Source: Candidatus Kuenenia stuttgartensis (GTDB lineage Bacteria > Planctomycetota > Planctomycetia > Planctomycetales > Planctomycetaceae). From it: a stretch of 52,936 bases of DNA. How positions within the stretch are numbered: position 1 is the stretch's first letter; each line of letters starts with the position of its first letter. A program made the translations under genes and the position numbers. Location: contig CAMAXD010000005.1 in assembly GCA_945861975.1 (NCBI GenBank), forward strand, positions 1 through 52,936, read 5' to 3'. Shown here piece by piece: positions 939 to 52,026 of this stretch. The notes beneath the pieces are model-generated. The model ran no database searches, was not told where the DNA came from, and saw only the letters and a list, made by a program, of their open reading frames with translations.

Positions 939-3900
939 ATGAGCCGACAATTCTGCTTCCTTCTGTTTCTCGCTGCCTGTTTCTGCCTGCAACCAGTGCA
1001 GGCTCAACTGCCAACGGTAAGACTCGATGGCGTGTTTCCTGCCGGCGAAGCACCGGGCGCTACTGTGGAATTGACCATTACGGGGAACGACCTTGATGAT
1101 GTCGATCGGCTGGTTTTCAGTCACGATGGAATCTCGATGACGCGGAAGATGGCGGAGGAGACGCCCTTTGAAGAAGGTCCCCAGCCGATTGAGAATGTGT
1201 TCCTTGTCACGGTCGCTCCAGGAGTTCCTCCCGGCAACTACGATGTGAGATGTCAGGGGAAATACGGGCTGTCGAATCGTCGGACCTTTGTTGTCAGTGC
1301 TACGGCTGAGTTCGTGGAAACAGAGCCGAATGGTGGCAATGACGTTCCGGCCTGGGTTGAGAAAGATGGCTTGCGAGAGAATGCTGCTCAGGAAATCACG
1401 TTGCCAGGCACGATAAACGGCCAGTCTTCTGGCGGACCAGATGTGGACTGGTATCGGTTTGTAGGAAAGGCAGGGCAGCGAATTCTGCTCGACGGGCAAT
1501 GTCGCCGGATTGACTCGCGGATGGATCTGGCCGCGACGATTTTTACTGAGTCTGGCGTTATCGTTGGAGAATCACGAACGGGGCAGGCGAATGATTCCAT
1601 CACGGATGTGACGCTTCCTGCGGACGGACTTTATTTCATCAAAGTTCACGACGCCCTGTTTGCACAGGGAGCGGGATATGCCTATCGATTGACGATTGGG
1701 GCTATTCCGTATCTGGACTTCGTGTTTCCTCCTGCGAGTCTGCCGGGATCCAACGAAGAATTTACGATCTATGGTCGCAATTTGCCGGGAAGTCAGCCGT
1801 CACCGTATCAGTTGGATGGTCGTCCGCTGGAGCAACTGACCGTGCAAATCCCGATGCCGGGTGATGTTGTCGGCAGGCTCACGTATTCCTCGTTGATTGG
1901 GCCTCATCAGGCAGGTATGGATGGCATTGAATACAGAATTGCTGCAAACGGCATCCAATCCAATGCGGTACTGATTACGCCAGCGACGGCCCCAATTGTG
2001 CGCGAGGCTGCGGACAACAACAATCCCAATGCTCCGCAGCTATTGACTCTGCCGTGTGAAGTTGCGGGCTCGTTTTATCCTCAGCGCGATGTGGACTGGT
2101 ATTCTTTTGAAGCGCAGAAGGATGATGTCTGGTCTTTTGATGTTTATGCGCAGCGGCTGGGTCGGGCAATCGATCCTGCAATATTGATTCAGCGGATCGG
2201 TACCAATGACAAAGGTGAGCCGACCTTTACCGACGTGACTTTTTTGGATGATGTGCCCGAACTCAACATCAACAATCGATCGGGGCGACATGAATTTGAT
2301 GAGCGAACGGCGGATCCGTCTTATCCGTTTAGAGCACCGGCTGACGGGATGTATCGAGTCCTGCTGAAGGACAGTGTGAGTGCTGTGCGAAGTGATCCAC
2401 GGCTGATTTATCGGTTAGCGATTCGAAAACCTCAGCCCGACTTTCATGTTGTGGCAATTCCGGGAGGTTCCACCGAGAGTCTGATGCTTCGCAAGGGCGG
2501 ACGCGATGTTGTCAGAGTCACCGCTTATCGCCAGGATGGTTTTACTGGTGAAATCCTTGTGTCAGTGACGGGATTGCCGGAGGGAGTGACCACCCAGGAG
2601 ATCACAATCGGTCCCGGAAACAATCATGGAACTCTGGTTCTGTCCGCCACGGATGCGGCACCAATGGGAGTGGGGACGCTGCAGATCGTGGCCAAAGCCA
2701 TGGTCAACGGAGCAGAGCTGGTCCGTCCGGCACGGTATGGCGCGGCGTTAGTTCCGTTTCAGTTCAATCAGCCCAACGCCAATGTTCCCAGCGTTCCTTC
2801 GCGACTTGTTGAGCGGTTACAGATTTGTGTTTCAGAGAAGGAAGCCGCTCCGCAAGTCCTGACGATTGGTGACGGGAAGCCGCTGGAGACATCACGTGGC
2901 GGTGTCTTGAAGATTCCATACACCGTTAAGCGAGTCGAGGGTTCAGCTGGTACTCTGATTGGATTCCCCAACGACTTTCCACCGAACACGAACGCTCAGC
3001 AGGTGAATATTGGCGCCAATGAAAAGGGTGAGTTTGAGCTCCGTTTTCAGGCCAACACCGTTCCGGGGACTTATTCGTTTTATTTGGCGGGCTTCAATCA
3101 GGGGTTGCAGTACAAACGGAATCCTGAGCTGGCTGAGAAAGCCAAACTGCGACAGGAGCGGATCGCGAAGATTCTGATGGATGCTCAACTGCAGGCCCAG
3201 AAAGCTCAGCTGGACAGCCAACAAAAAGTGACGGAGTTCAACCAAGCCAATACGGCTCTGACTCAGGCAAACACAGCACAGCAGCAGGCTGATCAGAAAG
3301 CGATAACGACAGCAGCGGCGTTGATGCAGGCAGAAGCGGTGTTCAAGCAGAAGACGGAGCAACTGGCAGCGGATGCGGCGAACGAAACACTGAAGCAGCA
3401 GTTATCGCAGGCACAGGTAGCATTTGATGCGGCAAAAAAGGCTGCTGATGAGGCAACGGTTTCAGCGACCGAAGCGGCAACCAAACAGGTTGAGGCAACC
3501 GCGAAGCAGAAAGCGGCGGAGGAGGCCCGTGTGAAAGCGCAGGCTGATCTTCAGGCGGCTCAGCAACTTTTGCAACTGGCGACTCAGGAAAAGCAGCGAG
3601 CTGACCAGTTTGCGAATCAGAAACAGAACGAAGCCAATGTCCGAGCCTTTAATGTACTCATTCCATCAAACACTCTCACGATTAAAGTCGTTGAGTTCCC
3701 CGCGAAGGTCGAGGCGATGCCAGAAGTACTTACCGTCAATCAGGGAGAAAATTGTGCCGTGGTGATTAAGGTTTCACGTCAATATGAGTTCACCGGGGCA
3801 ATCAGTGTTCAGTCGCAGTTACCGGGCGGAGTTGGCGGCATCAGTATTCCGGCCGCGAATATTCCGGAGAATCAATCCGAGATCAAATATGACATCACCG

Positions 3901-49467: not shown

Positions 49468-49489
49468 CGGCGAGCGGTTGGGCGTCAGC
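49468..49489. repeat. 22-bp repeat, left copy (inverted with 49626-49647)
   Basis: The sequence GGCGAGCGG-T-TGGGCGTCAGCC is the reverse complement of the copy at 49626-49647 with one mismatch (T for C). Sequences of this type, G-C rich and containing GGCGTCAGCC, occur as dispersed intergenic elements in planctomycetes as far as I recall. The pair forms a large hairpin-like arrangement next to the retron. Confidence 0.6.
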
Positions 49490-49625
49490 CGTCTGTGTTT
49501 CGGTTCCTACCTCCGGAGGCGATGCGACCATTTGAGATTCGATGTTCTTCAGGACCTGCGGAATTTGGAGATTCGAATACATGCCAACCGAGTAACGAGA
49601 CCTGGCAGTGCGCGTGGACTCGGAG

Positions 49626-49647
49626 GGCTGACGCCCAGCCGCTCGCC
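49626..49647. repeat. 22-bp repeat, right copy (inverted with 49468-49489)
   Basis: This copy reads GGCTGACGCCCAGCCGCTCG followed by CC and pairs with the left copy with one mismatch. It ends 66 bp before the a1 arm of the retron RNA and is not part of that structure. Confidence 0.6.
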
Positions 49648-49713
49648 TGAAACGAACGCGATCATCAGGCTTTGTTTCTGAGGTCGACAACGGTAACATT
49701 CGTAAGGTTTCGA

Positions 49714-49932
49714 GTGGGAGAGAGCAGCGTTCTAAGACCATCTTGCTGCGGCGTTACGCCGTGGTTGATTATTCTTCCCAACTCGTCCCCAGAGTCGTTG
49801 TTCGTTTGGCCAGCTCACCCAGTGGGCTGTTCGACCAAAACAAGCACAAGGCTTTCGCCCAGCCCACTGGTTGAGCTGGCCTTGGTGAACGCCTCTGGTC
49901 CGCAGATCGAAGTTAGACGTTGCCTCTCCCAC
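49714..49932 (+). ncRNA. Retron non-coding RNA (msr-msd) candidate
   Basis: Directly upstream of the reverse transcriptase. The a1 arm starts GTGGGAGAG (49714-49722) and pairs exactly with CTCTCCCAC (49924-49932). Pairing continues inward as GCAGCGT with ACGTTGC (one G-U), then CTAA with TTAG, giving about 20 bp with two single-base bulges. The G at 49736, directly after a1, is a good candidate for the branching guanosine. An msr-like hairpin CGGCG-TTA-CGCCG (49749-49761, extended to 8 bp) follows. The msd-like stem then pairs CCAGAG (49789-49794) with CTCTGG (49893-49898), CGTT with AACG, and a 21-bp arm, 49808-49828 with 49861-49881 (one mismatch), around a 32-nt loop. A predicted msDNA would be roughly 125 nt. 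The arrangement a1-msr-msd-a2-RT is the known retron order. The folding was done by eye. Confidence 0.75.
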
Positions 49933-49969
49933 ATTTTTCCGCTCATTGCTTGCTGCAGAATTTGTAGTC

Positions 49970-51589
49970 ATGCTCATTCGACTGCTGCGGTTCCTGATTC
50001 GACTGGCTCTGCCAACCCCGCAACCTCCGCGCGAGATGCCATCGTCGCTGGCCGGAAGAGATTTATCCGGACAACCGGGTTCTGCGACGCGTGCTGTTTC
50101 CCCGGTTGCAAACACCACGGTCCAGCCAGCTGGTCCAGCGGCGTTAAAAGGCAATTCGCTATCGGGACTCAATACGGATAAGTTCGCGCCGATGTCGGTC
50201 GCTGACGCTTTAGCCGCGACGGGTGCCGCCGACTGGCGATCTGCCAACTTTGATTCTCGATCGATCATTCCGCCGGCAGATCTGCCGCGAATACAGGTCA
50301 TCGATCGTACAATGGTGGGAATGGGGTTGATCTCTGAACAGGAGCTGGCCGAGATTCACGACATCGGGCGTGAGATGGCCCAGTTCCAGAGCGATGCAAC
50401 ATTCATTCATCAGGCGGGCGAAAGAGCGGTCGCGATCAGCCGCGAAGAGCGTCAGAGACTCAAAGAACAAAAGAAGGCCGAGGCGGAACAGAGACGAGTG
50501 TTGCGGCGCCAACAAGTGGCTCACAGGCGAGCGACCGACATCGTGTTTTTGGGCCGAGGTGTCTCGCGAGGTCTTGCTGATCGTCGCTCGAATATCGAAA
50601 CGCTGCAGGCCGGAGCACTTCCGCTGTTGTCGAGTCCGGCTGAACTGGCCAATGCGATGGGGCTGACAATTTCAAAACTCCGCTGGCTTGCGTTTCACAG
50701 CGATGCTCCGAACCGGGTTCATTATGTCTCGTTCAACATTCCGAAAAAGAGCGGTGGGATTCGACGACTTTCCGCCCCGCACCAGCAACTGGCGGCGGCT
50801 CAACACTGGATACTGACAAACATTCTGAACCTGATCCCTGTTCATCAGAATGCTCACGGCTTTGTGGCACAGCACTCCGTTGTGACGAATGCAGCACCGC
50901 ATGTTGGTTCGTCTGTCGTGATCAACGTGGACCTGAAAGATTTCTTCCCCAGTATCACGTTGGCTCGCGTCGACGGGTTGTTTCGCCGGATCGGTTATTC
51001 ACCAGCGATCGCGACGATTTTGGCTCTGTTGTGTACGGAGTGTCCCCGCGACGCCGTATCTTTCGGTGGTACAACCTATCACGCAGCGACCGGTCCACGA
51101 GCACTTCCGCAGGGGGCTTGTACAAGTCCAGCCATCTCCAATCTTATTGCGCACAAGCTGGATCGTCGCATGTCGGCCATGGCCAACAAACTGGGCTGGC
51201 GCTACACGCGGTACGCTGACGACCTGACGTGGTCGATTGATGCCGATCCCTCGCCGTCCGTCGGTTATGTGTTGGCTCGACTTCGCCATATTGTTGACGA
51301 TGAAGGTTTTGGGTTGAATCACGAGAAGACTCGTGTCCAGCGCAGAAGTCAACAACAGTCGGTGACCGGCGTTGTGGTCAATGACCGCCTGAGTATTTCG
51401 CGGGACACAATTCGAGAAATCCGGGCCATTCTGCATAATGCAAAACGCACAGGCCTGGCGGCTCAGAACCGAAACCAGCACCCGCACTTCGACAGCTGGC
51501 TGATCGGGATGATCGGGTGGATTGAAATGGTGAATCCTCAGCAGGGTGGAAAACTGCGAACCGAGCTGATTGAACTTCTACGAAAGTAA
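49970..51589 (+). CDS. Retron reverse transcriptase (Mx162-type, with N-terminal extension)
   Basis: A 539-residue protein from the ATG at 49970 (frame open from 49946; ATGs at 50036 and later are also possible). The RT palm shows D321 in DLKDFFPSI, GPRALPQGACTSP, and YADD at 415-418 in RYTRYADDLTWS. Retron hallmarks are NAHGF (294-298, X region) and VTG (465-467, Y region). The N-terminal part before the palm, with KKAEAEQRRVLRRQQ and FLGRGVS, then SKLRWLAFH, HYVSFNIPKKSGG and AAQHWIL, closely follows what I remember of the myxobacterial Mx162 enzyme. The first 20 residues (MLIRLLRFLIRLALP) are amphipathic and could touch a membrane. The gene begins 37 bp after the RNA. It would synthesise msDNA primed on the RNA. 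No effector gene is evident next to it. Confidence 0.9.
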   Translation: MLIRLLRFLIRLALPTPQPPREMPSSLAGRDLSGQPGSATRAVSPVANTTVQPAGPAALKGNSLSGLNTDKFAPMSVADALAATGAADWRSANFDSRSIIPPADLPRIQVIDRTMVGMGLISEQELAEIHDIGREMAQFQSDATFIHQAGERAVAISREERQRLKEQKKAEAEQRRVLRRQQVAHRRATDIVFLGRGVSRGLADRRSNIETLQAGALPLLSSPAELANAMGLTISKLRWLAFHSDAPNRVHYVSFNIPKKSGGIRRLSAPHQQLAAAQHWILTNILNLIPVHQNAHGFVAQHSVVTNAAPHVGSSVVINVDLKDFFPSITLARVDGLFRRIGYSPAIATILALLCTECPRDAVSFGGTTYHAATGPRALPQGACTSPAISNLIAHKLDRRMSAMANKLGWRYTRYADDLTWSIDADPSPSVGYVLARLRHIVDDEGFGLNHEKTRVQRRSQQQSVTGVVVNDRLSISRDTIREIRAILHNAKRTGLAAQNRNQHPHFDSWLIGMIGWIEMVNPQQGGKLRTELIELLRK

Positions 51590-51642: not shown

Positions 51643-52026
51643 CTGAACCTTCTGGCTCCCAGCATCGATTCCTACTTCCGGAAGGCTGCCAGGTCGTTGT
51701 ATGGTGTGCCGGAAGTGATCGAATGTTATGACACTCAGGAGCATTATTGGGAGCTGCAGCGTTTTCTGGTGTTGGCCCTGAAGTCGAATCCCAATGTTCT
51801 GGAAGGTCTTTACACGCCGTTGATCGAAAAGACCTCATCGATTGGTGACGAGTTAGTGGCCGTTCGTCGGGGCGAGATGCCGTGGGAAGAATCCGAAGCA
51901 CGGCGGTTGAGATTGCACAAAGAGTTCGATGAGGCACTGAAAGAAACCAGCCTGCCTGAATGGCCGGATTACGAACGTGTCAACGACTTTCTGGTTCGAG
52001 CCCGCCGGGCCGCCGTGGAGATCTGA
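51643..52026 (+). pseudogene. Truncated nucleotidyltransferase (RlaP/PF10127-like), N-terminus missing
   Basis: The frame opens after a TGA at 51640-51642 and runs to 52026; the first start-like codon is TTG at 51697. The encoded segment contains LQRFLVLALKSNPNVLEGLY (the helix after the nucleotidyltransferase core) and a C-terminal end of the family type (PWEESEARRLRLHKEFDEAL, then LPEWPDYERVNDFLVRARR). The N-terminal part with the GSR...D catalytic region is absent, and the short piece around SIDSYFRKAARSLYGVPEVIE joins directly to the C-terminal block. The upstream neighbour is the retron RT, 54 bp away. It could be a remnant or a retained helical domain; a remnant is more likely. Confidence 0.5.

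Follow-up and report, generated by a model that had tools for sequence, protein, structure and literature searches.

The window analysed here is the whole of contig CAMAXD010000005.1 (52,936 nucleotides), from a draft genome assigned to Candidatus Kuenenia stuttgartensis (GenBank assembly GCA_945861975.1). Its final 3.3 kb hold a retron, consisting of a structured msr-msd non-coding RNA (ncRNA) of 219 nt on the forward strand and, 3′ of it, the frame of a reverse transcriptase (RT) (Table 1). Two protein families, called SWIM_XIII and HEAT-ARM_XIII by PADLOC, recur beside such RTs in relatives, and it is the whereabouts of their genes that makes this retron unusual. An initial annotation of the window had described a complete retron locus of the Mx162 type in a planctomycete. 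The planctomycete origin is supported through the relatives; the locus turned out to be incomplete, since SWIM and HEAT-ARM genes are absent in cis. Retron types are named here after the PADLOC models, and loci, genomes and contigs carry our own handles (L, G and C).

The RT frame begins with an ATG at 49970 that all four close homologues share with the window; starting from a TTG at 49946 would lengthen the protein by eight residues to 547 amino acids. YADD (415-418), NAHGF (294-298) and VTG (465-467), all named in the initial annotation, were located in the 539-residue frame, and the long N-terminal extension described there amounts to about 200 residues ahead of the RT core. Catalytic YADD occurs together with NAHGF in region X, where NAxxH is a mark of retron RTs according to an excerpt of a 2019 review (PMC6868368). 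RT_XIII is the best-matching PADLOC model, the next-best reaching 360.4 bits. In the sequence search the RT of retron Ec86 led with E = 2.7e-42 versus 3.6e-7 for a group II intron RT/maturase. The AlphaFold2 model of the RT (predicted local distance difference test, pLDDT, 85.1) again found the Ec86 RT as best match in the fold search (E = 1.1e-23), with other retron RTs ahead of group II (2.4e-12) and diversity-generating retroelement (DGR; 8e-10) enzymes. Ec86 (Eco1) is thus the nearest solved RT by sequence and by fold and follows the same general plan, but it belongs to a different type, shares 30% identity in the fold alignment, and its solved chain of 320 residues has no long N-terminal extension. 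That the RT is instead an enzyme of a group II intron, a DGR or a defence-associated RT system, with an incidental structure upstream, is hardly conceivable: the group II RT/maturase model TIGR04416 gave a weak match, 58.8 bits where the cutoff is 300, whereas retron RTs lead in profile, sequence and fold searches and the upstream structure covaries. Group II intron and DGR identities were therefore rejected, in line with the retron identity first proposed.

The ncRNA shows what is expected of retron ncRNAs in general, namely pairing of a1 with a2, a conserved G at the end of this duplex and an msd hairpin. The outermost 9 bp of the a1/a2 duplex are perfect, and the 27-nt arms of the main msd stem are 89% complementary. 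The earlier description of arms of about 20 bp enclosing a region of about 220 nt with two hairpins, as well as their spacing, was accurate. A 223-nt RNA folds at −111.4 kcal/mol, compared with a mean of −69.7 kcal/mol (standard deviation 4.65) for 200 shuffles. The four same-genus homologues have RTs of 68-92% identity and ncRNAs that are largely identical outside the stems. Their msd stem and a1/a2 arms differ in sequence with complementarity mostly retained; among the window and these four genomes the msd stem comes in three unlike versions, each of them self-complementary. The promoter-like element ahead of a1 is, by eye, kept in all five, with a weaker −35 in L005, where TTGCCT replaces TTGTTT.

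Covariation was analysed in 14 ncRNAs from Planctomycetota, Verrucomicrobiota and Myxococcota, which are those of 21 inspected loci where arms beside the RT were visible. RNAalifold returned 33 pairs, 19 of them with changes on both sides, so that the co-varying structure anticipated in homologous loci extends over three phyla. In helix 4, within the msd stem, 9 of 10 pairs changed on both sides. Of 456 cells 94.1% pair, a value that none of 500 shuffles attained and that compares with 30-45% in slid controls, the tested structure being somewhat favoured as it was derived from the same alignment. The G following the a1/a2 duplex (G23 of the alignment) is invariant in all 14, and G49736 is the predicted branch point.

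Table 1. Features of the retron in the window (positions in the 52,936-nt stretch), with one ncRNA of a second retron for comparison
Feature	Position	Strand	Evidence and remarks
Putative ncRNA promoter, TTGTTT, N16, TAACAT	49672-49699	+	By-eye reading of the alignment; 3′ end 14 nt ahead of a1
Whole msr-msd ncRNA	49714-49932	+	Covariance model R1, 209.9 bits (the window is 1 of its 14 training sequences); fold z-score −8.97
a1 arm	49714-49735	+	Pairs with 49913-49932; compensatory changes in homologues
Predicted 2′-5′ branching guanosine	49736	+	First base past the a1/a2 duplex; putative role
msr hairpin GCTGCGGCGTTACGCCGTGGT	49745-49765	+	Helix 2 of the covariation analysis, 97.6% of cells paired
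msd stem-loop	49789-49898	+	Basal stem 49789-49799/49888-49898, main stem 49808-49834/49855-49881; inverted repeats and helices 3 and 4
a2 arm	49913-49932	+	Reverse transcription predicted to start just ahead of it (putative template end 49912)
Retron RT, 539 amino acids	49970-51589	+	PF00078 (RVT_1), E = 3.3e-19; PADLOC RT_XIII, 531.7 bits; fold nearest to Ec86 RT
RT N-terminal extension	49970-50560	+	Initial short helix, low-confidence linker, long helix, DIVFLGRGVS motif; alignments and AlphaFold2 model
ncRNA of the second retron (example)	L208, oriented 3031-3200		Arms like GGGTCGCACAA/TTGTGCGGCCCGC

An Rfam 15 scan of the window gave no match at the gathering score. Within 49650-49990, at E up to 5, it returned four sub-threshold miRNA hairpins, the best of them mir-250 on the minus strand, whose 25 bits compare with a gathering score of 58, and these were dismissed. 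Because Rfam offered no match, we built a covariance model, R1, from the 14 ncRNAs; the covariance search proposed at the outset thus failed with Rfam and succeeded with the purpose-built model, for which the window is a training sequence. R1 was run over 131 sources (51 + 80) and reached at least 45 bits in the window, in 15 of the 50 other sources of the first set and in 17 of the 80 of the second, counts that include training loci and their copies (L001, L032, L112). It located the ncRNA ahead of the RT in loci that had not been used for training (L014, L015, L017-L019, L036, L037, L041-L044, L047, L052, L057 and L122, L052 being the G119 contig of L017), and it also matched untrained L033, a fragment cut by the contig edge. 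All remaining sources stayed below 25 bits or gave no match. Presumptive Mx162 loci are among them, with 17.7 bits at best, and R1 therefore describes one branch of type XIII and not the whole type.

With regard to Mx162 (Mxa1) of Myxococcus xanthus, an RT with a frame of 500-527 amino acids was counted by eye in all 27 genomes from the genus to which Myxococcus sp. RHSTA-1-4 belongs, and each of the 27 has SWIM_XIII on the contig of that RT. In L127, L115 and L091 the end-to-end R1 match spans 241 nt with 16.7-17.7 bits and rough ends; L127 and L115 carry CAGC near the branch, and L127 scores best as RT_XIII. CAGC near the branch is reported for Mx162 in the excerpted review (PMC6868368). The length of the ncRNA, the CAGC and the genus-wide presence suggest that this Myxococcus retron is Mx162. 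Its RT, like that of the window, is an RT_XIII with an extended N-terminus, but its SWIM gene is linked, R1 scores 17.7 bits over 241 nt, and in our RT tree (a quick method, no bootstrap, midpoint root, no group II outgroup, 41 of 140 inner branches open) it stands on a separate branch. The assignment to the Mx162 type consequently stands only as far as the shared RT_XIII profile goes, and the expected grouping of the RT with Mx162 was contradicted: the presumptive Mx162 rows (such as L092, L115, L123-L128 and L130) fall on another branch, in so far as a quick tree and a probable Mx162 identity allow. The window RT sits in a branch composed mostly of Planctomycetota and Verrucomicrobiota, adjoining other myxobacterial XIII retrons (Polyangium and some Myxococcus). 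A phage-borne origin was considered and rejected; among 80 relatives retained of 218 in IMG/VR the top segment identity was 40% over the RT core, and no SWIM or HEAT-ARM match was found in these 80 at E = 1e-3.

With type XIII retrons the window shares the RT_XIII profile and the ncRNA family seen in XIII loci of Planctomycetota, Verrucomicrobiota, Polyangium and Myxococcus. In relatives the genes are arranged as HEAT-ARM, SWIM, ncRNA, RT or as HEAT-ARM, ncRNA, SWIM, RT. At least 2.9 kb precede the RT match in 71 of 80 loci (nine have less, one of them, L085, with SWIM), and SWIM lies upstream of the RT in 64 of these 71. The seven loci lacking it there are L032, from the clade of the window, L047, L064, L074, L076, L082 and L089; downstream of the RT, part of a SWIM gene is present in L074 and L082. 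Matches to the HEAT-ARM protein of L139 occur in 14 of the 80 loci and thus mark nearer relatives. In the L139 homologue the SWIM finger falls slightly short of the Pfam cutoff (17.5 against 19.6 bits). In contrast to these arrangements, tblastn of the entire 52.9-kb window with RT, SWIM and ARM references retrieved the RT only (best SWIM E = 1.8, best ARM E = 2.4). SWIM_XIII and HEAT-ARM_XIII, which type XIII loci usually carry, are not found here, and since the partners lie outside the locus we regard it as a dispersed variant and not as a canonical type XIII locus.

Several observations concern the surroundings of the retron. At 51697-52026 the window has what is left of a gene for an RlaP nucleotidyltransferase (35 of 249 Pfam positions matched), the counterpart of which in G126 is full-length with 324 amino acids; it was rejected as a partner because among 32 neighbourhoods it recurs only in G126. 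Inverted copies of GGGCTGACGCCCAGCCGCTCGCC at 49469-49491 and 49625-49647 (2 and 0 mismatches, 0.00 expected by chance) sit just upstream of the putative retron promoter. Two same-genus type XIII relatives, L014 (37-2664) and L015 (154-2664), are the only ones with a gene between ncRNA and RT for a methyltransferase of about 240 amino acids; their genomes, G128 and G130, gave no SWIM_XIII match at E ≤ 1e-5.

Where, then, are the partners? The sample of the window's family comprises 170 genomes, 12 of which have an RT of this class with at least 500 bits, leaving 158 others. The parts are linked in five of the 12 (G001, G012, G077, G120, G140) and unlinked in seven (G000, G126, G133, G122, G117, G162, G060), G000 being the window's genome, a draft of 612 contigs and 94% completeness. 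All seven unlinked genomes have SWIM_XIII on another contig, C236 in the case of the window, and five of them HEAT-ARM_XIII on a further contig, including the same-genus G117, G126 and G133. In the other 158 genomes SWIM_XIII reached 440 bits in eight, in seven of these on the same contig as another RT match. Fisher tests over 165 genomes, with the five linked ones omitted and kinship ignored, gave p = 1.1e-8 for any SWIM_XIII of at least 440 bits (7/7 against 8/158), p = 1.4e-11 for SWIM of the same subclass (7/7 against 1/158) and p = 2.2e-8 for HEAT-ARM above 540 bits (5/7 against 0/158). The identities of RT and SWIM correlate across 22 genomes (r = 0.86, Mantel p = 2e-4); the divergence of the two is correlated with rho = 0.77 in pairs that include an unlinked genome and 0.67 in linked pairs, and the values for RT and HEAT-ARM are 0.76 and 0.80. 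Between the window's genome and G126 the ratio of non-synonymous to synonymous substitution rates is 0.086 for the RT and 0.109 for SWIM, with 0.124 and 0.051 for two neighbour genes; RT and SWIM are under purifying selection.

The separation could be sought in draft assembly or binning. Most genomes are indeed many-contig drafts, and matches in G117, G122, G319 and G354 are partial or at contig ends, but in G162, G126, G337 and G133 the parts are flanked on both sides by ordinary genes or kilobases of sequence. In G162, with 20 contigs and 100% completeness, the parts lie well away from the ends of their contigs, which measure 557, 260 and 887 kb. SWIM neighbours are common to G000, G126, G132 and G117, and a HEAT-ARM neighbour is common to G126 and G117, so that SWIM and HEAT-ARM look like settled chromosomal genes. 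The GC content of the pieces is alike within a genome (0.548-0.554 in G126, 0.550-0.569 in G162, 0.625-0.649 in G060). An artefact as the main cause of the unlinking is therefore very improbable. In G060 even the ncRNA is separate from the RT: R1 matches with 173.5 bits on C51, while the RT lies on C26 with no R1 match within 16.6 kb around it, and the solitary ncRNA has a predicted fold with arms and msd stem.

Taken together, we consider it likely that the window holds a chromosomal retron belonging to the type XIII lineage, in which the ncRNA-RT unit, SWIM and HEAT-ARM are unlinked, are jointly retained in a genome by selection and can still act in trans. A number of points weigh against it. 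HEAT-ARM was not found in searches of G000, the 612-contig draft, and of G122; the SWIM match of G122 spans just 372 bases at the end of its contig, and that of G117 also reaches a contig end. L156, on contig C63 of G132, holds a SWIM_XIII that shares its gene surroundings with the one in the window's genome and has 93% identity to its G126 counterpart, and the G132 draft gave no match to RT, ncRNA or HEAT-ARM. Five of the seven unlinked genomes form one clade, and a lineage-collapsed test counts three lineages. Another 14 genomes have HEAT-ARM_XIII matches of 27-280 bits, which tells us that the family extends beyond this RT class. Finally, co-inheritance and correlated divergence are also expected if unrelated genes are plainly inherited vertically.

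Some of these findings would fit an ordinary type XIII retron that has lost its partners and persists as a solitary or domesticated maker of multicopy single-stranded DNA (msDNA), with SWIM and HEAT-ARM elsewhere doing separate jobs: HEAT-ARM is not found in G000 or G122, and G132 retains SWIM without an RT match. A second planctomycete retron points the same way. Retron-like RTs with frames of 396-559 amino acids and 37-43% identity were found in L208-L224, all from the window's family. An ncRNA of 136-177 nt precedes or overlaps the RT frame in 15 of the 17 loci and is unsettled in L219 and L223; 14 aligned ncRNAs (the near-copy L212 omitted) have 40 pairs, 19 of them changed on both sides. 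Flanking genes are common to eight genomes of one genus. RT matches with E ≤ 1e-20 occur in 140 of 152 family genomes outside the genus of the window, many in the match range of the second retron as judged without individual checks, and this retron is widespread in the family. PADLOC scores the RT of L030 first as RT_other. In all 17 loci the surrounding 8.1 kb hold no SWIM or HEAT-ARM match, which indicates that retrons lacking these partners can be stable. Set against this is the fact that all seven genomes with an unlinked RT have SWIM and five of them HEAT-ARM, HEAT-ARM above 540 bits being present in none of the 158 others. We judge such a loss of partners to be unlikely, albeit worth keeping in mind.

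Dispersal is not restricted to the window's family. In 397 genomes of the class, R1 ncRNAs (E ≤ 1e-4) were found in 66, SWIM_XIII (E ≤ 1e-100) in 82 and the RT (E ≤ 1e-80) in 87. We pooled 63 genomes with an RT of at least 470 bits, 59 from the class and 4 from the family sample, counting only SWIM of the matching subclass, with second-subclass matches and three ncRNA matches below 39 bits omitted. Of the 63, 48 have SWIM within 3 kb of the RT and 13 have it elsewhere; no SWIM was found in the remaining 2. Of the 13, G319, G354, G375, G117 and G122 are uncertain (contig ends, partial matches, short contigs). G337, G289 and G425 are unlinked genomes outside the family in which sequence is present on both sides. 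Mapped onto the RT tree, the unlinked state requires six gains or losses, at least four of them forced by starred branches, with one long-branch meeting flagged and G319 counted as unlinked though its SWIM touches a contig end; dispersal thus probably arose more than once.

The ncRNA, too, is found away from the RT. Within 4 kb of the RT 0, 1, 2 and 3 ncRNA matches were counted in 7, 38, 14 and 4 of the 63 genomes. Two tandem copies stand before one RT in L007 (the same as L135, from G162) and before a SWIM-RT pair in L138 (5526-6001, from G077). At least 14 of the 63 genomes carry one or more ncRNAs away from both RT and SWIM; these counts are lower bounds, five candidates per genome having been scored in the class sample, and in the drafts G298, G371 and G437 a contig break may account for the distance. 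The one-contig genome G216 has seven R1 copies in the stretches examined: a pair at the RT locus, a tandem array of three and two solitary copies. Over their 21 pairs, 91% of core columns are shared, compared with 48% in the msd stem-loop and 37% in the arms, which align poorly. The long msd stem is retained in all five copies that were drawn; for two of these, L188 and L191, the minimum-energy fold of the padded stretch gives the arms other pairing partners. Solitary or tandem ncRNAs of the R1 family were also seen between other genes, away from any RT found, in L188, L189, L191, L192 and L194-L198. By eye, a solitary copy occupies a similar gene setting in G246, G225 and G353, and another in G351 and G326. 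In 30 R1 matches 97.3% of cells pair, in an alignment fitted to the model. The extra copies look maintained, and they may be used by the RT.

With regard to the partners themselves, a model of the SWIM protein of L036 (pLDDT 76.5, predicted template modelling score 0.73) was subjected to a fold search. The best 50 of 464 matches (E ≤ 0.001) are all sliding clamps or clamp-containing complexes, with a best E of 5.6e-9, template modelling scores mostly of 0.57-0.69 when normalised to the target and about 0.3 when normalised to the query, and 7-14% identity. The profile of the SWIM alignment found nothing significant among PDB sequences (best E = 0.029). As sequence profiles miss the clamp, its likeness rests on one predicted model, in which the SWIM protein resembles sliding clamps. 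It is tempting to speculate that such a clamp-like protein might act by binding the msDNA duplex or by disturbing replication.

How could such a dispersed retron work? The 219-nt ncRNA would fold with its 5′ and 3′ ends paired as a1/a2, and the RT would bind it, prime on G49736 and copy the long hairpin into a branched RNA-DNA, the msDNA. In most relatives this ncRNA-RT unit would work with the product of the SWIM zinc-finger gene, in the nearer ones also with that of the HEAT-ARM gene. By analogy with studied retrons, the RT-msDNA complex would hold SWIM and HEAT-ARM inactive until disturbance by a phage releases them, the idea of a sequestered effector being taken from such retrons (excerpt of PMC12548924). 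In this planctomycete genus the operon would have been taken apart into unlinked chromosomal sites, with its parts acting in trans. A more far-reaching version is attractive, though we put it forward tentatively and incline somewhat to doubt it. The planctomycete retron would then be a dispersed network of RT, ncRNA, SWIM and HEAT-ARM in trans, in which one RT serves two to seven scattered ncRNAs with the same RT-recognition core and diverging msd stems, giving a repertoire of msDNAs, and a SWIM protein with a PCNA-like sliding-clamp fold ties msDNA sensing to the replication machinery.

Later papers treat several retrons as phage defence. In its excerpt the 2019 review still called the role of retrons in general poorly understood (PMC6868368). 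Among the matches listed from the open literature, a scope outside which most subscription papers lie, nothing was found on planctomycete retrons, the function of type XIII, retrons with unlinked parts or SWIM partners that resemble a clamp; in the portions available, one defence survey contains both "retron" and "Planctomycetota", and one paper both "type XIII" and "retron".

Partner genes scattered over the chromosome are not expected of retrons, the annotation of which usually seeks the parts side by side. Systems with scattered yet co-retained parts could therefore be missed or be labelled as orphans. The clamp-like model of SWIM is a first structural idea for the partners of type XIII retrons, including the SWIM protein beside the presumptive Mx162. 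Should the scattered parts function in trans, retrons would not have to be compact cassettes, and several msDNAs could be produced by a single RT; in that case, whether the copy-variable msd stem sets specificity would become directly testable.

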